A stretch of 41,899 bases of DNA from Paraclostridium ghonii (GTDB lineage: Bacteria; Bacillota; Clostridia; Peptostreptococcales; Peptostreptococcaceae): positions 1 through 41,899 of the forward strand of contig NZ_JAKEDR010000007.1 of assembly GCF_023653455.1 (NCBI RefSeq), in the 5' to 3' direction. Both the position numbers and the translations under genes were made by a program. Shown piece after piece: positions 14,424 to 41,847 of this stretch. The notes under the pieces are model-generated. The model saw only the letters and a program-made list of their open reading frames with translations. It searched no databases and had not been told where the DNA came from. Position 1 is the stretch's first letter, and the number at the start of each line of letters is the position of its first letter.

Positions 14424-14519
14424 GATATTTAAGGGCAAAACTAGGGAAATCTAGCTACGCAAAACTATAGGGGCTAAGGCTTTGAAAAGCTATGCTTGCC
14501 AGTTACCGAAGAGTTAATA
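14424..14519 (+). ncRNA. c-di-GMP-I riboswitch (GEMM-I) in the flgB leader
   Basis: The conserved GEMM-I landmarks occur in order: AAGGGCAAA (14431), a CTAG/CTAG hairpin closed by a GGGAAAT loop with a GNRA-type GAAA, ACGCAAA, GGGGCTAAGGC, a short GCTT-TGAA-AAGC hairpin, TATGCTTGCCAG and GTTACCGAA. In C. difficile the same class precedes flgB and lowers flagellar transcription when c-di-GMP is high; the same position and direction here make an OFF switch likely. P1 pairing is weak (TATT with AATA), so the exact ends are approximate. Confidence 0.92.
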
Positions 14520-32110: not shown

Positions 32111-32866
32111 ATGTATAATATAATGCATAATAGTAAGTCTGGCATGCTATCAAGTCAATCTAATATAGATATAATATCTAACAATATAACAAATGCACAG
32201 ACTGTAGGATATAAAAAATTAGATATTAATTTTTTAGAATTATATCAAGAATCATTACATAAAAACTCGTACCCAACTAACTCTACAAATCTTAGAACAG
32301 GCACTGGAAGTAGAGTATCTCAAACAACGAGAAATTATTCTCAAGGATCAATTAAAGAAACTAAAATAAACACTAATTTAGCAATAGATGGGGATGGTTT
32401 TTTTAGAGTTAGAAGGTCTGATGGAAGCTATGCATATACTAGAAGTGGGGAATTTAATTTAGATTTAAATGGTAAATTAGTAGATGATAATGGCAATGTA
32501 TTAGATATACAACCATTGAATGGTAATTCTAAGGATATTAATTTAAAAAATGGAGATTTAAATATAAATAAATTTGGAGAAGTATACTTAAATAACAACA
32601 AAGTTGGAGTTATTAATTTATATCAGCCTAAAGGAGATACGGATTTTGTATCTGTAGGAGATAGTTTATTTACTGCAAATCAAGCAAATGTTGAAGATGT
32701 TCAAAATAAAAATATAATTCAAGGTCATATAGAAATGTCTAATGTAAATATGCAAAATGAGATGGCAGATTTAATAATGACTCAAAGAGCATTTCAGTAC
32801 AATAGTAAAGGTATACAAGCAGGCGACGATATGTGGTCAATGGTAAATAATCTTCAAAGTAGGTAG
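32111..32866 (+). CDS. flgG: Flagellar distal rod protein FlgG
   Basis: 251 residues. Same family as the preceding gene: KSGMLSSQSNIDIISNNITNAQT at the N-terminus, LAIDGDGFFRVRR centrally, and VNMQNEMADLIMTQRAFQYNSKGIQAGDDMWSMVNNLQ at the C-terminus, the classical FlgG ending with a QRAFQ motif. It forms the distal rod. It shares the usual layout but has only moderate similarity to the upstream copy. Confidence 0.9.
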   Translation: MYNIMHNSKSGMLSSQSNIDIISNNITNAQTVGYKKLDINFLELYQESLHKNSYPTNSTNLRTGTGSRVSQTTRNYSQGSIKETKINTNLAIDGDGFFRVRRSDGSYAYTRSGEFNLDLNGKLVDDNGNVLDIQPLNGNSKDINLKNGDLNINKFGEVYLNNNKVGVINLYQPKGDTDFVSVGDSLFTANQANVEDVQNKNIIQGHIEMSNVNMQNEMADLIMTQRAFQYNSKGIQAGDDMWSMVNNLQSR

Positions 32867-32884
32867 AATTAGGAGGAATATAAA

Positions 32885-33766
32885 GTGAAAATGACAATCA
32901 GAGATTATGATTTTAAAAAACCTCAAAGATATTCTACTGATAATATGAGATTTTTATCACTTATAGCTGAAGACTTTTGTAAATATATGAATTTACACAT
33001 AACATATGAATTAAAACAGCTAAGTATAAATGCCAAACTTGAAAAAATAAGTCAAACTAATTTTGAAGAATTTATGGAATCAATCAATCATGACTCAATA
33101 ATGATAGAACACGACATACTACCTTTAGTAAAGGGACTTATATATCAAATGGATAAAACAGTAGCTCTTACACTTATAGATTTAATGTTAGGCGGAGATG
33201 GTAGTTTTAAAGATGAAAATAGAGAATTAACAGAAATTGATAAGCATTTAATTTTAAGTATTGCTACATCTTTTATAACTAGGTTACACATAGTAGATGG
33301 ATGCAACAAAAGAGAAATTTCAAGTATTTATACCAACGTTGAATCAAGTAATAAGTTTTCAGTAAGTGAGTCTGTACTTATTGCACAAATGACTATGTAT
33401 AATGGTAAAGACGAAATTGGAAAGATGCGCTTTTGCAATCCTTATTGTTGTATGGAACCAGTACTTGAACAATTAGAAACAAAAAAACTTCTAAAAACTA
33501 GAGATATAGAAGGTCAATATGAATTTACCAACACTATATATCAAAACATTTGTAATGTAAAGTCTGATATGACTGCAACACTAGGGAAAACAAACATATC
33601 TGTAAGAGACCTTATAAATTTAAATGTAGGAGATGTTTTGAAACTAGACACTAAAGCTAATGGAGTTGCACTACTTAGCGTAAATGGATATAATGTTTAT
33701 GAGTGCAAACCAGGGCTTATAAAAAATAAAAAAGGACTTATTATAGTAGACACAATAGATAAATAA
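32885..33766 (+). CDS. fliM: Flagellar motor switch protein FliM, lacking the N-terminal CheY-binding segment
   Basis: 293 residues from GTG 32885 (eight nt after AGGAGG). The middle domain (about 25-200; AVALTLIDLMLGGDG, LTEIDKHLILSIATSF) and the C-terminal SpoA domain (about 215-290; ISVRDLINLNVGDVLKLDTKANGVALLSVNG, GLIIVDTID) are those of FliM. Usual FliM proteins begin with an LSQxEIDALL peptide that binds phosphorylated CheY; here the protein begins directly with DYDFKKPQRYSTDNMRFL. An upstream in-frame stop (TAG 32870) rules out a longer start. fliN, normally next, is absent from the window. Confidence 0.9.
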   Translation: MKMTIRDYDFKKPQRYSTDNMRFLSLIAEDFCKYMNLHITYELKQLSINAKLEKISQTNFEEFMESINHDSIMIEHDILPLVKGLIYQMDKTVALTLIDLMLGGDGSFKDENRELTEIDKHLILSIATSFITRLHIVDGCNKREISSIYTNVESSNKFSVSESVLIAQMTMYNGKDEIGKMRFCNPYCCMEPVLEQLETKKLLKTRDIEGQYEFTNTIYQNICNVKSDMTATLGKTNISVRDLINLNVGDVLKLDTKANGVALLSVNGYNVYECKPGLIKNKKGLIIVDTIDK

Positions 33767-35933: not shown

Positions 35934-36839
35934 ATGGATAAATTAAATTTATCGAAATTAACAACAGAAAGTAGAAACCAAGATACATTAAATATAGATA
36001 AAGTATCAACACTAGAAATGGTTAAAATGATAAACGAAGAAGACAAAAAGGTAGCACAAGCAATAGAAAAAGAATTGACTCAAATAGCAAAAGCAATAGA
36101 TGAAATAGTAGATAGGATCCAACGAGGAGGAAGACTAATATATATAGGGGCAGGAACTTCAGGAAGATTAGGAATACTAGATGCATCAGAATGCCCTCCC
36201 ACATATGGAGTGTCAGAAGAATTAGTTCAAGGTCTAATTGCAGGAGGTCAAGAAGCTATATTTAGAGCTAAAGAAGGAGCAGAAGATTCAAAAGAATTAG
36301 CTGTAATAGATTTAAAAGATAAAAATTTAAATGAAAATGATACCGTAGTAGGTATAGCTGCATCAGGAAGAACTCCATACGTAATAGGAGGACTAGAGTA
36401 TGCAAATCAAATAGGAGCTCTAACGGTTTCAGTTACATGCAATGCAGATTCGCAAGTTGCAAAAGAAGCTAAAATAGCAATATCACCAGTAGTTGGACCA
36501 GAAGTAGTAACAGGATCTACAAGGTTAAAATCAGGAACAGCTCAAAAACTAGTATTAAATATGTTATCAACAGGCAGTATGATAAAAATGGGTAAAGTAT
36601 ATGGGAACTTAATGGTAGATGTAAAAGCTACAAATGAAAAACTGGTAGAAAGGTCTAAAAAGATTGTATGTGAAGCAACCGGAGCAACGTTTGAGGAAGC
36701 ATCAAAAATATTAAATGAAACAAATTTTGATGTGAAACTATCTATATTCATGATTTTATCAAATTTAGAAAAAGAAGAAGCAAAGATAAAGTTAGAACAA
36801 CATAAAGGATATATAGCAAAAGCTCTTAAAAATATATAA
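35934..36839 (+). CDS. murQ: N-acetylmuramic acid 6-phosphate etherase MurQ
   Basis: 301 residues, the usual length. MurQ cleaves the lactyl ether of MurNAc-6-phosphate to give GlcNAc-6-phosphate and D-lactate in the cytosol, the central step of MurNAc recycling. It has the SIS sugar-phosphate domain with [23 protein letters not shown] (about 70-92; Glu86 is in the catalytic position) and RAKEGAEDS (second conserved Glu). [18 protein letters not shown] is also typical. GGAGG precedes the ATG. First gene of the four-gene mur operon. Confidence 0.97.
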
Positions 36840-36861
36840 AAAATAGATAGGAGGAACTGCA

Positions 36862-38223
36862 ATGACAAATCAAGAAATAGCAAAAAATTTAGTTGAATTA
36901 GCTGGTGGGAAAGAAAATATCAAAAGTGTACAAAACTGTATGACACGTTGTAGATTAGAACTTCTAGATTACTCAAAAGTTAAAATGGAAGAACTAAAAA
37001 AATCAGAGGGTGCACTTGGAGTAGTTCAAGCTGAGGGGCAATTACAAATAATATATGGCCCAGGTAAAGTAAATAAAGTGACTGAAGAAGTAAATAAGAT
37101 AGTAGGAAAAAAAGTACTATTAGGAGATGAAGCAATAAAAGAAACAAAAGACAAATTGAAAGAAAAAAATAATACGAAATTTAAAAATGCACTTAAAAAA
37201 GTTGGAAACATATTTATACCATTAATACCATTATTTGTAGCATGTGGATTAGTTTTAGCAGTAAATAATATTGCTGGCGTATACTTTGGAGAAGCTTATA
37301 CAAGTACAACATCAGCTAAAATAATAGGTTTAATAGGAAGTGGAGTTTTCTCGGTATTATCTATATTAGTCGGGGTAAATGCAGCAAAAGAATTTGGATC
37401 TCAAATGCCAATGATGGGTGGGGTACTTGGAGGTATTTTATCTTCTCCAGCTCTTGCTGATATAAATTTATTTGGAATGACATTAACACCAGGCAGAGGT
37501 GGAATAATATCAGTAATATTAGTTGCATTATTAGCAGTTTATATTGAAAAAGCATGTCAAAAAGTAGTACCGGATGTGTTAGACTTATTTATAACACCAT
37601 TAGTTACATTAATAATTTCAGTTTTAATAGCATTATTAGTATTACAACCAGTGGGTGGGTTTATATCAGACTCAATAGGTGTGGTAGTAGCAAATACTAT
37701 AGCCTCAGAGAATATGATACTTTCTGTTATGTCAGGAGCTATATCAGGAGCACTATTCTTACCATTAGTTATGACAGGAATGCACCAAGCTTTAACACCT
37801 ATACATGCAGATTTGATAGCAAGTACAGGATCAACAGTTTTACTTCCAATATTAGCAACAGCTGGTATGGCTCAAGTTGGAGCTACAATAGCAGTTTTTA
37901 GAAAGACTAAAAATAAAAGATTAAAAGAAACAGCAAAAAATGGATTAGTACCAGGGTTTTTGGGAATAGGAGAACCTTTAATATATGGAGTAACACTACC
38001 TCTTGGAAAACCATTCTTAGCAGCTTGTCTAGGAGCTGGGGTAGGTGGAGCAGTAATGGCATTTTTCAAAGTTGGAGCAGTAGCCATGGGGGTATCAGGA
38101 TTACCACTTGCACTATTAATAGCTGACGGAAAAATGTTTGTGTTCTTGATTGGAGTTTTAACTTCATATATAGCAGGATATTTCTTTACAGAATTACTAG
38201 GTTTTGAAGATCCAATAGAATAA
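36862..38223 (+). CDS. murP: PTS EIIBC transporter for N-acetylmuramic acid
   Basis: 453 residues. An N-terminal EIIB domain (1-80) holds phosphorylatable Cys26 in QNCMTRCRLEL; a linker (about 85-110) leads to an EIIC domain with about ten membrane helices (from NIFIPLIPLFVACGLVLAV) and the family GIGEPLIYGVTLPLG motif. No EIIA domain is present, so phosphate must come from a shared glucose-type EIIA, as for E. coli MurP. The sugar is assigned from its place between murQ and mupG. It probably brings in MurNAc (or MurNAc-GlcNAc) as the 6-phosphate. Confidence 0.92.
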   Translation: MTNQEIAKNLVELAGGKENIKSVQNCMTRCRLELLDYSKVKMEELKKSEGALGVVQAEGQLQIIYGPGKVNKVTEEVNKIVGKKVLLGDEAIKETKDKLKEKNNTKFKNALKKVGNIFIPLIPLFVACGLVLAVNNIAGVYFGEAYTSTTSAKIIGLIGSGVFSVLSILVGVNAAKEFGSQMPMMGGVLGGILSSPALADINLFGMTLTPGRGGIISVILVALLAVYIEKACQKVVPDVLDLFITPLVTLIISVLIALLVLQPVGGFISDSIGVVVANTIASENMILSVMSGAISGALFLPLVMTGMHQALTPIHADLIASTGSTVLLPILATAGMAQVGATIAVFRKTKNKRLKETAKNGLVPGFLGIGEPLIYGVTLPLGKPFLAACLGAGVGGAVMAFFKVGAVAMGVSGLPLALLIADGKMFVFLIGVLTSYIAGYFFTELLGFEDPIE

Positions 38224-38234
38224 AAAATAAAAAA

Positions 38235-38363
38235 GGACTGACCTAAGATTTGGGTATTCTGGATATAATAATAAGTTTTGCTCCCAAAGCTTAAAAGACG
38301 CTTTGAAATTCGCTAAAACTTGTTATAATACCTTTACCTATTAATAAGGTCGGTCCATTTTTT
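38235..38363 (+). other. Folded intergenic element between murP and mupG
   Basis: About 125 nt with nested pairing: outer stem 38235-38244 with 38347-38356 (ten pairs, one G-U), then GGTATT with AATACC, then AAGTTTTGC with GCTAAAACTT, then CAAAGC with GCTTTG. A run of T follows the outer stem and A-rich sequence precedes it. It could be a decayed MITE-like hairpin, a terminator, or a structured regulatory RNA; it matches no riboswitch class I know. Confidence 0.6.
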
Positions 38364-38404
38364 ACGCTTAAGGATATTACATTTATTAAAAAAACTATAC
38401 ATAG

Positions 38405-38428
38405 TCGCTCAAGCGAAGCGAATTTTTT
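38405..38428 (+). terminator. Small terminator-like hairpin just before mupG
   Basis: TCGCT (38405-38409) can pair with AGCGA (38417-38421) or with the nearer AGCGA (38412-38416), followed by T6. It lies 22 nt before the mupG start. It would reduce read-through into mupG and murR unless overridden. Confidence 0.5.
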
Positions 38429-38449
38429 ATATAAGAGGAGGTAGATATT

Positions 38450-39523
38450 ATGAGCTTAGGTTTTTCAGTTTACTTTGGGTTAGACAACACAAAAGATGAG
38501 AATATTCAATTATTAAAAGATGCATATGAATTGGGGTTTACTAGGATTTTTACATCACTTCATATTCCAGAAGCTAATTATGAGATTTTAAAAGTTGAGG
38601 TAAGGGATTTTTTTAAAATAGCAAAAAAATATGATATGGATATAATTAGCGACATATCTCCTAATACTTTTAAGTTTTTGGATTTAGAAAATGTGGATTT
38701 AAAAGGTTTAAGAGATATGGGAGTGAAAACTATAAGAATAGATTTTGGATATATAGAAGAAGAAATAGCTATCATGAGTAAAAATAATTATGGGATACAG
38801 ATACAATTAAATGCTTCTACAATAAGCGCAGATTTCTTTGAAAACTTGGATAAGTTTTCTCCAAACTATAAAAATATAGATGCTCTTCATAATTTTTACC
38901 CAAGAGTTGGGACAGGTATATCAGAAGAATGTATGATAGAAAAAAATAAAATATTAAGTGGCAAAGGTATAAAAGCATGTGCATTTGTTCAGTCTAATAA
39001 CAGGAAAAGAAGTCCTTTAAAGGATGGATTGCCAACATTAGAAGACCACAGAAATAAAGAGGTAAGACAAGCTGCTAATCATTTATTTGCAATAGGAAAT
39101 AAATCAGTATTTATAGGAGACTCACTTCCAAGTAAGCAAGAATTAAAGGAATTATCAAGTCTTTTCACAGAAGGAGTAGAGTTAAGAATAAAAGTAGATA
39201 CTAAAGATGAAGTATCTACAAATTTACTAGATGAAATATATAGTTCACGAATTGATGAAGCAAGAGATGCTATAAGGGCTAGTGAAAGCAGGTTAATTTT
39301 AAATGAAAAAGAAATAAAACCTGAAAATACAGTAAATAAAAAGTATGGAGATGTAACAATAGACAATAATGGATATCAAAGGTATATGGGAGAACTTCAA
39401 ATTTTGACTATTGATCAAGAGAAAGACCCTAGAATAAATAAAGTAGCATCAGTTTTACAAGATGACTTTTATCTATTAAAATATATAAAGGATGGTAAAA
39501 AGTTTTATTTTAGGAAGGTTTAG
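38450..39523 (+). CDS. mupG: 6-phospho-N-acetylmuramidase MupG (DUF871 family)
   Basis: 357 residues of the DUF871 family: N-terminal TIM-barrel part beginning LGFSVYFGLDNTKDENIQLLKDAYELGFTRIFTSLHIPE, with DISPNTFKFLD and IRIDFGY, and a small C-terminal domain ending in YLLKYIKDGKKFYFRKV. MupG, described in Staphylococcus aureus, splits MurNAc-6-phosphate-GlcNAc inside the cell. Its presence suggests that the PTS system takes up the MurNAc-GlcNAc disaccharide rather than only MurNAc. AGAGGAGG precedes the ATG. Confidence 0.9.
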   Translation: MSLGFSVYFGLDNTKDENIQLLKDAYELGFTRIFTSLHIPEANYEILKVEVRDFFKIAKKYDMDIISDISPNTFKFLDLENVDLKGLRDMGVKTIRIDFGYIEEEIAIMSKNNYGIQIQLNASTISADFFENLDKFSPNYKNIDALHNFYPRVGTGISEECMIEKNKILSGKGIKACAFVQSNNRKRSPLKDGLPTLEDHRNKEVRQAANHLFAIGNKSVFIGDSLPSKQELKELSSLFTEGVELRIKVDTKDEVSTNLLDEIYSSRIDEARDAIRASESRLILNEKEIKPENTVNKKYGDVTIDNNGYQRYMGELQILTIDQEKDPRINKVASVLQDDFYLLKYIKDGKKFYFRKV

Positions 39524-39526
39524 ATT

Positions 39527-40372
39527 ATGAATATTTTAGAATATATAAAACAAAATTATGAAGACTTTACAGATAGGGAAAAACTTATAGCTGATTACTT
39601 ACTTACTAACAATGAGAGTATAATAAATTTATCGGCTAAAGATATAGGAGAGTTAACAAATACTTCAGCTGCAACATTAATTAGATTTTCAAAAAAGTTA
39701 GGATTTGAAAGCTTAAACGAAATGAAGTTAAAGTTATCTATAAGTTTAAGAGATAAAAAAGATAATACTGATTTTGAATATATAAATAAAAAACTTGAAA
39801 CAACAGACATTATATATGGTATAAAAAAATCAATAGATACAGTAATGGAGAAGACTGTAAATCTTATACAAGAAGAAGATTTAGAAAAAGCAATAGAGTT
39901 ACTTTCTAAAGCTAAGAATATATATATTTATAGTGTAGGGGTTTCAGGATTAGTAGGACAAGATTTTTATTATAAACTAAGTAGAATAAACAAAAGATGT
40001 GTAGCTCACGTTGATACTCACTTACAAATTACTTCATCAATATTAATGGAACCTGGAGACGTAGCAGTTGCTATATCATACTCAGGAACTACAAAAGAAG
40101 TAATTAAGTGTATAGAAAATGCAAATAAAAACAATGTACCAGTAATATGTATAACAAAAGCTAGTATAAATAATAAATTAGAAGATTTATCAGATATAAC
40201 ATTGAAAGTTCCATACGTAGAAAAATCATTAAGAGAAGGTGCTATGAGTTCGAGAATATCTCAACTAGCAGTAATAGATATGTTATTTATAGGTATGGCA
40301 AAAGGAAATTTAGAGGAAATAGAAGATAAATTAATAGTAACACGAGAAGCAGTAAAAGATTTAAAGTTATAA
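39527..40372 (+). CDS. murR: RpiR-family regulator of the mur operon
   Basis: 281 residues. Residues 1-77 form the RpiR helix-turn-helix (LTNTSAATLIRFSKKLGFESLNEMKLKL); residues about 110-250 form a SIS domain that senses a phosphosugar (NIYIYSVGVSGLVGQDFYYKL, VAVAISYSGTTKEVIKC). It begins 3 nt after mupG. The ligand is probably MurNAc-6-phosphate, as for E. coli MurR. The dyad over the murQ promoter is the likely binding site. Whether it represses or activates cannot be read from the sequence. Confidence 0.88.
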   Translation: MNILEYIKQNYEDFTDREKLIADYLLTNNESIINLSAKDIGELTNTSAATLIRFSKKLGFESLNEMKLKLSISLRDKKDNTDFEYINKKLETTDIIYGIKKSIDTVMEKTVNLIQEEDLEKAIELLSKAKNIYIYSVGVSGLVGQDFYYKLSRINKRCVAHVDTHLQITSSILMEPGDVAVAISYSGTTKEVIKCIENANKNNVPVICITKASINNKLEDLSDITLKVPYVEKSLREGAMSSRISQLAVIDMLFIGMAKGNLEEIEDKLIVTREAVKDLKL

Positions 40373-40382
40373 GGTGAAATAA

Positions 40383-40431
40383 AAAATGGGAGAGGAGTGT
40401 TTTGCTACACATCTCTCCTATTTTCCATTTT
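40383..40431 (+). terminator. Terminator-like hairpin after the mur operon
   Basis: Interrupted stem: AAAATGG (40383-40389) with CCATTTT (40425-40431), an inner GAGAG with CTCTC, and GTGT with ACAC closing a TTTGCT loop. The T-run is weak. It follows the murR stop by 10 nt. Confidence 0.65.
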
Positions 40432-40948
40432 ATCTTATATTAGAGAGAAGGCTGTAGGTAAGTGATTATAAAACAAATCCACAAATTATGACTATCTAAT
40501 GAAAAAATATGAAAGAATTTAACTAAAGGATAACTAGTAAATTTAAGTGAATAGATAATATACTCATCAGTTAACCCAGAATAACTCACAATTCTAGAAT
40601 TATCAAAAGATTAAAATAGATAAAAATGAACAATTTAGTTTTCAAGAAAAATAAGAACTTAATTTATTAGGATTATATTAAATTAAAAAGTATATTTAAA
40701 TTTAAATAGCCTACTTTGATGAATGTAAGCAATGGTTAATTCATCAAAAGTAGGTTGTTTTTTATTAAAACTAATGAGTTATGGGTATATCAAAGGTGTA
40801 AATTTTTAATAGATGTTAAAGAATAACTGTTAAAAACATAATAGACAAGTATAACAAAAAGTATTAATTAAGGAGAATTATTAGAATATAAGAGACTTTT
40901 TTATATTTAGCATATAAAATTTGCAATAAAATGGCGAATGGAAAAAAT
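40432..40948. other. Long gene-free region with an orphan terminator
   Basis: No convincing open frame on either strand and no recognised RNA family. It is about 75-80 percent A+T with stops in every frame. The one clear feature is the + strand terminator at 40710-40766. It may be the remnant of a lost gene or hold a short non-coding transcript. Confidence 0.5.
40710..40766 (+). terminator. Orphan intrinsic terminator
   Basis: A 15-bp stem (40710-40724 with 40739-40754, one bulged base) with a 14-nt loop, followed by TTGTTTTTTATT. No gene lies directly upstream on the + strand; murR ends 340 nt earlier and has its own hairpin. Confidence 0.85.
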
Positions 40949-40976
40949 AGTATACTAAAGTATACTGTGGTAGAAT
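40949..40976 (+). promoter_or_regulatory. Promoter and operator-like dyad of the c-di-GMP-II transcript
   Basis: TGGTAGAAT (40968-40976) is an extended -10 element, with a start predicted near 40983, 16 nt before the aptamer. Directly upstream is a perfect dyad AGTATAC-TAAA-GTATACT (40949-40966) covering the -35 region, where no good -35 hexamer exists. This fits an activator or repressor site. Confidence 0.5.
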
Positions 40977-40998
40977 TATTTTTGATTAATATATTGGG

Positions 40999-41075
40999 TA
41001 GGAAGAGGCGTAGAAATATATCCTTTATTTGGGCGCTTGGGATATATGGAGCTAGTAGCGCAACCGGTTTTTCTA
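40999..41075 (+). ncRNA. c-di-GMP-II riboswitch
   Basis: The conserved core reads GGGCGC-TTG ... GCTA-GTA-GCGC-AACCGG, as in the Clostridium aptamers of this class. Pairings: P1 40999-41006 with 41068-41075 (8 bp with G-U pairs); the pseudoknot 41016-41023 (ATATATCC) with 41040-41047 (GGATATAT), perfect; and GCGC 41033-41036 with GCGC 41058-41061. The helices differ in sequence from the textbook aptamer but keep pairing, which is strong support. It controls the LuxR-type gene 48 nt downstream. Confidence 0.9.
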
Positions 41076-41122
41076 ATCATTACAATTTAATTTATTGTTG
41101 AAAAGAAAAGGGGAAATATATT

Positions 41123-41728
41123 ATGAATATTTTAGTTGTGTCAGCCTCATTTATAACAAGAGAATCTTTAGAGAATGTATTTAAATATACATTAAACATA
41201 GGGGATGTAGTATTAAAAGAAAGATTATCAGATTTAACTAAAGAAGAGTTATTAAATGCTAAATTGATATTTATAGAGCTTGAAGAACGGACAACAATTG
41301 AATTGGATTTAATAAAATACGTTAAGCTATATTCAAAAAATACGAAAGTAATTGTCTTAGATCGAAACAAAAGTGAATTTATATTCACAGAATTAATTCA
41401 AAGTAACGTAGATGGATATATCTTCAATGTAAAAGACAAATCTGAGTTTATACACAATATAGAAAATATATTAAGAGGAAAAAAAGTATTTGAGTCGGAT
41501 TTAATTGAAAATATAGTACACAATAAATATATAAACAATATGAAGTTACTTACGAAAAGAGAGAATGAGGTATTGGAAGAAATGGCTAAAGGCCTTAACA
41601 ATAAAGAAATTGCTAATAATCTTTATATAACAGAATATACGGTAAAAAAGCATGTAAGCAATATATTCGCTAAACTAGGGTTTAAAAATAGACAAGAAGC
41701 CATAATATCAATAGCAAGTATGCTATAA
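41123..41728 (+). CDS. LuxR/NarL-type regulator with pseudo-receiver domain
   Basis: 201 residues. Residues 1-120 have the response-regulator fold (LVVSASFITRESLENVF; LIFIELEERTTIELDLIKYVK; GYIFNVKD keeps the Lys). The acidic pair near the N-terminus is replaced by Ser-Ala-Ser, and the phospho-acceptor Asp is replaced by Glu52, so phosphorylation is unlikely. Residues 137-201 are a standard LuxR helix-turn-helix (LTKRENEVLEEMAKGLNNKEIA, TVKKHVSNIFAKLGFKNRQEA). No histidine kinase gene is adjacent. AAGGGG precedes the ATG. Control appears to lie in the c-di-GMP-II riboswitch in its leader. Targets are unknown. Confidence 0.88.
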   Translation: MNILVVSASFITRESLENVFKYTLNIGDVVLKERLSDLTKEELLNAKLIFIELEERTTIELDLIKYVKLYSKNTKVIVLDRNKSEFIFTELIQSNVDGYIFNVKDKSEFIHNIENILRGKKVFESDLIENIVHNKYINNMKLLTKRENEVLEEMAKGLNNKEIANNLYITEYTVKKHVSNIFAKLGFKNRQEAIISIASML

Positions 41729-41847
41729 TGGGCTGTTTCAAAATAAGTAGGAAGGATAAATACATAAATTTTAGATGCATTTGAAGTATCTGGAAGTGAT
41801 ATTTGTATATTTATCTTAATAATTCTGCTATTTTGAAACAGCCCATT
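41727..41847. repeat. MITE-like long hairpin with 19-bp inverted ends
   Basis: Ends 41727-41745 and 41829-41847 are exact 19-bp inverted repeats beginning AATGGGCTGTTTCAAAATA. The core also folds imperfectly (GATAAATACATAAAT with ATTTGTATATTTATC). GGGCTGTTTCAAAA-type ends resemble terminal repeats of some Gram-positive insertion sequences. There is no coding capacity, so it would be a non-autonomous element. It begins in the stop codon of the LuxR-type gene and, with following T-rich sequence, could serve as its terminator. No clear target duplication is seen. Confidence 0.65.

Follow-up and report, generated by a model that had tools for sequence, protein, structure and literature searches.

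Cyclic di-GMP (c-di-GMP) acts on the Gram-negative biofilm regulators CsgD and VpsT, NarL/LuxR-type proteins with atypical receivers, at the level of the VpsT protein or of csgD transcription. In Clostridioides difficile, as described in the available text of PMC8844915 and PMC12548384, a c-di-GMP-II riboswitch raises the CmrRST system, comprising two OmpR-family regulators and a kinase, of which CmrT is likely a pseudoreceiver with Glu53. The available text of PMC6200980 already proposes that c-di-GMP is relayed via riboswitch-controlled regulators. Given CmrRST and this proposal, the idea of a relay is not new. Here, we examine a 41,899-nucleotide (nt) stretch of Paraclostridium ghonii (contig NZ_JAKEDR010000007.1, hereafter the window), from the same bacterial family as C. 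difficile (Peptostreptococcaceae), which carries near its end a c-di-GMP-II riboswitch and, behind it, a gene for a NarL/LuxR-type regulator. With a probability of about 0.58, we favor a reading in which c-di-GMP raises the amount of this phosphorylation-independent regulator, which would drive itself along with matrix and pilus genes.

The riboswitch and its probable direction

The preliminary description of this locus, made from the letters alone, had recognized a c-di-GMP-II aptamer, and a covariance search of the whole window (cmscan) bears this out: the match to RF01786 covers model positions 1-84 of 84 and scores 68.3 bits, above the gathering score of 53.5 (E 2.3e-13 over the window as a whole), ending 44 nt before the regulator's ATG at 41123 (Table 1). 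The whole 3.53-Mb genome holds a single further c-di-GMP-II aptamer, on another contig (C335:793-877, 76.8 bits). Covariation supports the P1, P2, P3 and pseudoknot structure of the c-di-GMP-II aptamer, with P1 the weakest element. Counting the Rfam structure in 19 aptamers that precede NarL-type regulators, 15 from the family and four from Clostridium, 83.1% of cells are paired and both sides change at 19 pairs, giving a covariation score of 0.392; shuffles score 0.208 and slid controls no more than 0.156. P3 is paired in 98.7% of cells, with both-side changes at 8/8 pairs, and the pseudoknot is paired in 19/19 leaders (100%), one of its pairs being A-U in 15 and G-C in four, including the window. 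P1 is poorly conserved (58.9% paired), as expected if its 3' strand has a second role.

By analogy with relatives and with C. difficile, we infer that the window switch turns the regulator ON. In the available text of PMC6200980, the genes behind all four class II switches of C. difficile rise with c-di-GMP. In two relatives of one genus (G074 and G016), the aptamer 3' side AACCGGCAUCUCU pairs with the leader segment GGGAUUGCCGGUU, followed by a U run, to form an intrinsic terminator (duplex -17.6 kcal/mol, p 0.004); folding of the aptamer would disrupt it, hence an ON switch. Another relative, G048:C190, has a significant alternative helix (p 0.026), and these three are the only ones among 15 leaders for which the duplex test supports a switch; in the other 12, the best alternative helix often lies over the Shine-Dalgarno sequence or start codon, yet is no better than in shuffles. 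For the window leader itself, we propose a ligand-free helix that would cover the Shine-Dalgarno sequence AAGGGG (41108-41113); it is present in the minimum-free-energy structure, and its 7-bp part UUUUUCU/AGAAAAG also appears in the centroid.

A regulator with an apparently repurposed receiver

The regulator, which reads MNILVVSASFITRES...LIFIELEE, ends in a GerE/LuxR helix-turn-helix domain (PF00196, 72 bits against a cut-off of 23.5), and the Pfam scan lists no Response_reg match. The AlphaFold2 model nevertheless shows a five-stranded receiver fold with strands alternating with helices (mean predicted local distance difference test score 90.5), and the top fold matches in the PDB are VraR, LiaR and spr1814 (E 4e-12 to 3e-11). 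All five phosphorylation residues are replaced. Ser7-Ala8-Ser9 at the acidic pair and Glu52 at the acceptor Asp are as first described; Asp80 at the Thr/Ser position and Asn102 at the Lys position come in addition. The protein thus falls among the pseudoreceivers, or aspartate-less receivers, defined in the available text of PMC12548384 by the lack of at least one of the five residues and a replaced acceptor Asp. The earlier statement that no partner kinase lies nearby also holds, in that family scans of ten window proteins, reaching back to 32111, contain none.

Looking for the protein in other Peptostreptococcaceae, as the preliminary description had suggested, yields a distinct clade. A profile built from 18 regulators separates 37 genes scoring at least 182 bits from a next best score of 135 bits, and these genes occur in 16 of the 71 family genomes searched. 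Aligned with outgroups, the first acidic residue is Ser in 37/37 clade proteins, Ser9 is present in 35/37, the Thr/Ser position is Asp in 35 and Asn in two, and the conserved Lys is absent from all 37. As a control, eight outgroup regulators keep the first Asp, the acceptor Asp and the Lys in 8/8, and the second Asp and the Thr/Ser in 7/8 each.

The preliminary description had named an intact acceptor Asp in close homologues as evidence that would speak against it. Close by, its view stands: Glu52 is kept in 11/11 homologues of at least 60% identity (P0002-P0012, the window's orthologue group), whose nearest named members are proteins of Paraclostridium bifermentans (P0011; the nearest named homologue, 77%) and Romboutsia sp. 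(P0012). Farther out it does not, as the next 25 homologues (P0013-P0037) have Asp in 19 and Glu in six, and across the 37 clade proteins the acceptor position is Asp in 26, Glu in five and another residue in six. Even where the acceptor Asp is retained, the phosphorylation chemistry is probably lost clade-wide, because the first acid, Thr/Ser and Lys are replaced in 37/37. Since the replacements are uniform, a repurposed receiver fits better than a decaying one, and the clade receiver looks repurposed, more than merely dead.

Table 1. Positions of the regulator locus and adjoining elements in the window.
Feature	Coordinates	Strand	Basis or detail
Weak sigma-70-like promoter	40939..40966	+	TGGAAA, 16 nt, TATACT; 9/12 match
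Inverted repeat AGTATACTAAAGTATACT, candidate operator	40949..40966	.	Overlaps -10-like TATACT 40961-40966
c-di-GMP-II riboswitch aptamer (RF01786)	40996..41078	+	Covariance score and covariation
Proposed ligand-free helix	41064..41113	+	CC 41064-41065 and UUUUUCU 41068-41074 (aptamer 3' side) with AGAAAAG 41104-41110 and GG 41112-41113
NarL/LuxR-type transcription regulator, degenerate receiver, 201 aa	41123..41728	+	Translation, hidden Markov model (HMM), alignment, model, fold match
Very stable long hairpin, then T-rich stretch	41727..41847	+	-50.7 kcal/mol, z -8.4, 0/200 shuffles as stable

Repeated pairing of riboswitch and regulator

Among the 71 family genomes, 34 contain c-di-GMP-II aptamers. 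When the aptamer list was crossed with the genes (113 of 117 rows, the four below the curated cut-off being omitted), a same-strand aptamer stood 15-67 nt ahead of 15 of the 37 clade genes and of 0 of the 47 other NarL-type genes. Judged from the tree, the riboswitch has been repeatedly gained or lost before clade genes: its label changes six times, at least four of the changes being forced by well-supported branches, although the count covers 41 of 56 rows and several long branches make single placements unsure.

Related arrangements occur in Clostridium, with neighbors assigned by eye. In each of Clostridium oryzae and Clostridium muellerianum, a single aptamer stands ahead of the leading gene of a related pair, with exopolysaccharide-type genes alongside. 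Clostridium rhizosphaerae carries two aptamers ahead of two regulators whose receivers are near-intact (the second acid is lost), next to SipW-type matrix genes. A class-wide survey gave a c-di-GMP-II match in 52 of 391 genomes. No full-length NarL-type frame occurs in any of the 27 survey loci outside the family (about 1.5 kb per side, less at contig ends); this sample is skewed to high-scoring matches, with the remaining survey matches lying outside it. At two loci outside the family, L228 (G166) and L235 (G361), the regulator profile matches frames shortly downstream of the aptamer in its receiver part only. Elsewhere, at L190 (G048), L193 (G013) and L198 (G076), an aptamer precedes, by eye, an EAL phosphodiesterase-like gene, a possible negative feedback loop.

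A probable regulator array beside matrix genes

The second aptamer of the P. ghonii genome lies on contig C335 within an ordered series of regulator paralogue A, riboswitch, paralogue B, a fibro-slime protein and a matrix operon. The surface protein that follows the paralogues is of the fibro-slime/PA14 type (TIGR02148). Two BsaA-family SipW-dependent matrix proteins (TIGR04090; 64.9 and 70.3 bits, cut-off 60) accompany a SipW-like peptidase (TIGR02228; 100.5 bits, cut-off 51.85) that scores 90 against the cut-off of 190 of the SipW equivalog model NF046067, together with a possible sortase substrate. C335 thus combines the SipW-type peptidase and SipW-dependent matrix proteins of a BsaA/SipW matrix locus. 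No kinase adjoins the C335 paralogues, and one kinase was found about 10 kb away. The stretch concerned (L087:12061-16956, about 10 kb or more from the regulators) encodes a two-component-propeller histidine kinase and a solute-binding-domain/EAL protein cut by the contig end.

Clade genes often stand in tandem, and in the genome G012 four genes form an array: the window orthologue (51% identity), one gene that corresponds to gene A of C335, and two that are of the type of its gene B, each of these two preceded by its own aptamer. This order suggests that the window contig (C342) runs into C335 in the chromosome, across a join that is unseen. The window regulator is most likely the first gene of a three-regulator array, two members of which have their own c-di-GMP-II aptamer. 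The one-component circuit put forward in the preliminary description accordingly stands as far as a kinase-free pseudoreceiver behind a switch is concerned, and gives way where it implied a lone regulator.

TIGR02228-type peptidases are rare in the family (14 matches in 13 of 71 genomes at E 1e-8), and half of them (seven) have a clade gene no more than 3.2 kb away, in G000, G001, G013, G016, G048, G073 and G074, which span four genera. Two of the other seven (G001 and G004) follow a c-di-GMP-II aptamer at a distance of 0.8-0.9 kb, so that the same operon type is found either directly behind a switch or beside a switch-controlled regulator. At L200 (G004:C84) and L181 (G001), the gene immediately behind the aptamer encodes a 206-aa protein with, by eye, a SipW-type leader.

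A candidate operator at the promoter

The preliminary description had taken a dyad over the promoter as a hint of autoregulation. The dyad, with the inner form TATACTAAAGTATA at 40951-40964, is a good candidate operator by its recurrence in sequence. Its core TATACTNNAGTATA occurs at exactly two sites in the P. ghonii genome, here and 136 nt before the fibro-slime gene start on C335, the second having been noticed by eye before counting; the reversed control pattern has three sites. Within 400 nt ahead of each of the 37 clade genes (less for two at contig starts), 11 dyad matches with at most one mismatch fall in 10 regions, against a mean of 0.48 and a maximum of three in 300 dinucleotide shuffles, and no match precedes any of 14 other NarL genes tested from the 47. 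A count of 29 in 389 open reading frames (ORFs) is an unfair control, as it includes loci chosen for their dyads.

The 16 clade genomes contain 21 exact dyad sites with the TT/AA spacer. Five lie shortly upstream of a c-di-GMP-II aptamer (that of the window's own gene, of the G076 regulator, and of pilins in G007, G016 and G048), three precede matrix or secreted surface genes (the fibro-slime gene of P. ghonii, a TasA-like gene of G048 and a G007 gene for an 809-aa protein with a leader peptide by eye), and 13 are elsewhere, ahead of other genes or within them. When one mismatch is allowed, the dyad precedes riboswitch-controlled pilin genes in G013, G007, G016 and G048. Exact sites with all spacers lie within 150 nt of an aptamer in 5/43 cases in clade genomes versus 0/39 in 20 genomes with the riboswitch and without the clade, where the nearest site is 28 kb from an aptamer (Fisher p 0.035). 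The hint of autoregulation thus gains from the recurrence of the dyad before clade genes, while the operator and the regulon are statistical leads.

Proposed mechanism and alternative explanations

In the favored reading, a c-di-GMP-II riboswitch would set the dose of a phosphorylation-independent NarL/LuxR-type regulator. At high c-di-GMP, the aptamer would bind its ligand and fold its P1 stem, freeing the ribosome-binding site and yielding more regulator, whereas in some relatives aptamer folding would instead prevent an intrinsic terminator. The regulator would act without a kinase, its receiver fold kept and its phosphorylation residues traded for a conserved Ser7/Ser9/Asp80 set. A regulator dimer would then bind the inverted repeat TATACTttAGTATA at its own promoter and at surface-gene promoters, the operator form proposed for its DNA binding being TATACTTTAGTATA, and activate as putative targets the neighboring fibro-slime gene and BsaA/SipW matrix operon and, in relatives, type IV pilin genes with their own c-di-GMP-II switch. 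The three-regulator array would thereby resemble a Gram-positive counterpart of CsgD, leading from c-di-GMP to matrix and pili, partly through a feed-forward loop. For the relay to a c-di-GMP-high regulon suggested in the preliminary description, the surface and matrix neighborhood fits, and the regulon itself remains a proposal.

Several results weigh against this reading. Of the 37 clade genes, 22 lack a switch of their own, and no aptamer reaches the cut-off before the window orthologues in G012 and G076, so that even in the window's orthologue group the switch is not a fixed feature. In the window leader, the Shine-Dalgarno-covering helix is no better than in shuffled leaders (duplex p 0.38; whole fold z 0.16), and p exceeds 0.2 for 12 of the 15 leaders. 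Adjacency to matrix genes is not regulation; G012 and G076 have arrays but no TIGR02228 match at E 1e-8, so their arrays would need other targets; and with up to one mismatch allowed, four of six matrix operon starts lack the dyad, two having an exact site (six of the seven clade-adjacent operons, the start of the G073 operon not having been located). The dyad statistics soften as well. The reversed pattern gives four matches upstream of the 37 clade genes, and the exact-site contrast has p 0.067 without the window's own site, the source of the motif. Riboswitch loci carry the dyad in 9/38 cases in clade genomes versus 1/20 in others (Fisher p 0.07), the single one being a pilin gene of a genome in the same genus as G016; for the reversed pattern the counts are 5/38 and 0/20, with 4/14 among regulator leaders, nearly matching the dyad's 5/14. 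In these comparisons, the 38 loci are 14 of the 15 regulator leaders (G048:C2 is omitted, its contig starting 167 nt before the aptamer) and 24 others; G045 stands for the eight g17 genomes, and G071:C154, G077:C93, G078:C35, G019:C54, G081:C5 and G079:3043708 are excluded; of the loci below cut-off, L197 (G074:C11) is included and G076:27346 and G007:C119 are not.

In one alternative, the riboswitch sets the regulator level but the regulator serves genes other than those for matrix and pili, the SipW/BsaA neighborhood being an old co-location of surface genes and the dyad a promoter-linked palindrome of another factor. The dyad does contain a -10-like TATACT on both strands, and the 13 sites elsewhere, the reversed palindrome upstream of clade genes and the arrays of G012 and G076 without a TIGR02228 match at E 1e-8 agree with it, as would the two paralogues separating the window regulator from the matrix operon. 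We regard this account as possible though rather unlikely, for half of the SipW-type peptidases sit beside clade genes in seven genomes of four genera, and the dyad recurs upstream of clade genes and of none of the other NarL genes tested. Another account takes issue with the leader, as a broken or OFF switch that leaves regulator expression independent of, or lowered by, c-di-GMP. The unremarkable fold of the window leader, with no significant alternative helix, would suit it, but an aptamer well above cut-off, with a pseudoknot kept by a compensatory pair, and the ON behavior of class II switches in C. difficile (available text of PMC6200980) make it quite improbable.

Two further alternatives concern the protein. 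If the receiver sensed a different signal, with Ser7-x-Ser9 and Asp80 as a ligand pocket, c-di-GMP would fix how much regulator is made, while its activity would depend on a second small molecule or a partner (AND logic). The uniform replacements (Ser7 in all 37), unlike free decay, and the receiver fold predicted with high confidence speak for such a pocket; it has no known ligand, its conservation could be structural, and 31/37 proteins still have Asp or Glu at the acceptor position, so we hold this to be unlikely. The regulator might also bind c-di-GMP itself, as VpsT does, with the riboswitch merely adding to this. VpsT structures appear among the fold matches (3klo, rank 15, E 2.3e-9) and the sequence matches (3kln, E 6e-10), and the CsgD model matches with 68 bits against a cut-off of 250. 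However, VraR, LiaR and spr1814 outrank VpsT as fold matches, and the W[FLM][TS]R motif of VpsT is found in 0/37 clade proteins, the matched stretches containing no Trp at all; we rejected VpsT-like binding on this ground and consider it very improbable.

The favored reading, in which c-di-GMP doses a phosphorylation-independent activator, has a more far-reaching form. Repeated riboswitch recruitment to the phosphorylation-free NarL clade, combined with riboswitches on target mRNAs (type IV pilin, BsaA/SipW), might constitute a coherent feed-forward loop in which the Ser7/Ser9/Asp80 pocket reads a second signal. This extension is speculative and on present evidence doubtful; if true, c-di-GMP would make the activator at the RNA level and also open the target mRNA.

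Surroundings in the window

The contig ends at 41899, 171 nt past the regulator gene, so downstream neighbors are not visible from the window alone. Directly after the regulator stop codon lies a near-perfect hairpin of 121 nt, likely the gene's terminator, which reads as a very long terminator or a lone element. A mobile-element origin of this inverted repeat was rejected, as its 16-nt arm GGGCTGTTTCAAAATA has no other copy in the genome with at most one mismatch. Upstream of the aptamer, the promoter call is graded weak because the 11 sigma-70-like sites of the promoter region do not exceed shuffles (12.1).

Proteins of the last 5 kb include an N-acetylmuramic acid 6-phosphate (MurNAc-6-P) etherase, a phosphotransferase system (PTS) IIBC component, MupG and an RpiR/MurR-type regulator, and the genes at 35934-40372 form an apparent cluster for N-acetylmuramic acid use, MupG being of the 6-phospho-N-acetylmuramidase type. 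Between the RpiR/MurR-type regulator and the dyad, about 570 nt (40373-40938) contain no ORF of 80 aa and show, by eye, hairpin-like repeats near 40385-40425 and 40705-40770 with T runs after them. A second riboswitch of the window, of the c-di-GMP-I class (RF01051, 74.3 bits in cmscan), lies at 14424-14510 and precedes a long plus-strand ORF run that includes FlgF/G-like and FliM genes (32111-33766). With this layout, class I would govern motility and class II the surface genes, as C. difficile papers describe.

Comparison with known systems

The closest parallel is CmrRST, which shares the riboswitch class before a regulator operon and a Glu-for-Asp receiver and, in the available text of PMC8844915 and PMC12548384, shows CmrR autoregulation at a specific DNA site and surface and biofilm phenotypes in C. 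difficile. By the same texts, CmrR and CmrT are OmpR-family proteins, CmrT keeps the Thr/Ser and Lys residues, and a kinase and an invertible switch are present. The clade described here is of the NarL/LuxR type, has no adjoining kinase that we found, has lost the first acid, Thr/Ser and Lys in 37/37 proteins, and is marked by tandem arrays and SipW/BsaA linkage. With its GerE output and no adjoining kinase, the window locus falls outside the CmrRST type, in which a c-di-GMP-II switch heads one operon of OmpR-family regulators plus a kinase.

Other parallels concern the genes nearby. The sipW-bsaABCRSD operon of Clostridium perfringens (available text of PMC7395162) likewise unites a SipW-type peptidase and BsaA-family proteins beside regulators, but these are the two-component pair bsaR/bsaS, whereas riboswitch-controlled pseudoreceiver regulators adjoin here; in that text c-di-GMP has one mention, inside a cited title. 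In Paraclostridium, a related host group, c-di-GMP-II switches, of the same class as here, stand in tandem ahead of surface-anchor genes and drive the surface protein directly (available text of PMC9481103), whereas the window switch drives a regulator. Among the best-ranked open papers, we found none on a NarL/LuxR regulator behind a c-di-GMP-II switch, subscription journals, preprints and lower-ranked papers being outside this scope; to the extent of these searches, what is new is the family of the regulator, its array without a kinase, the repeated recruitment and the link to matrix operons.

The near-intact receivers of C. rhizosphaerae and the degenerate ones of C. oryzae, C. muellerianum and Peptostreptococcaceae, all with the same riboswitch class, form a natural series that lets one ask how a phosphorelay protein becomes a dose-controlled regulator. 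As the regulator, array, candidate operator and targets are short and cloneable, the idea is directly testable in laboratory strains.

With CsgD and VpsT, the window system shares the output family, the proposed role, the VpsT fold and a weak match to the CsgD HMM; it differs in lacking the VpsT motif and in its predicted reading of c-di-GMP on the mRNA leader. If the favored reading is true, Gram-positive anaerobes would possess a master switch for matrix and pili in which c-di-GMP is read on the regulator's mRNA rather than on a protein, a kinase-free counterpart of CsgD and VpsT.

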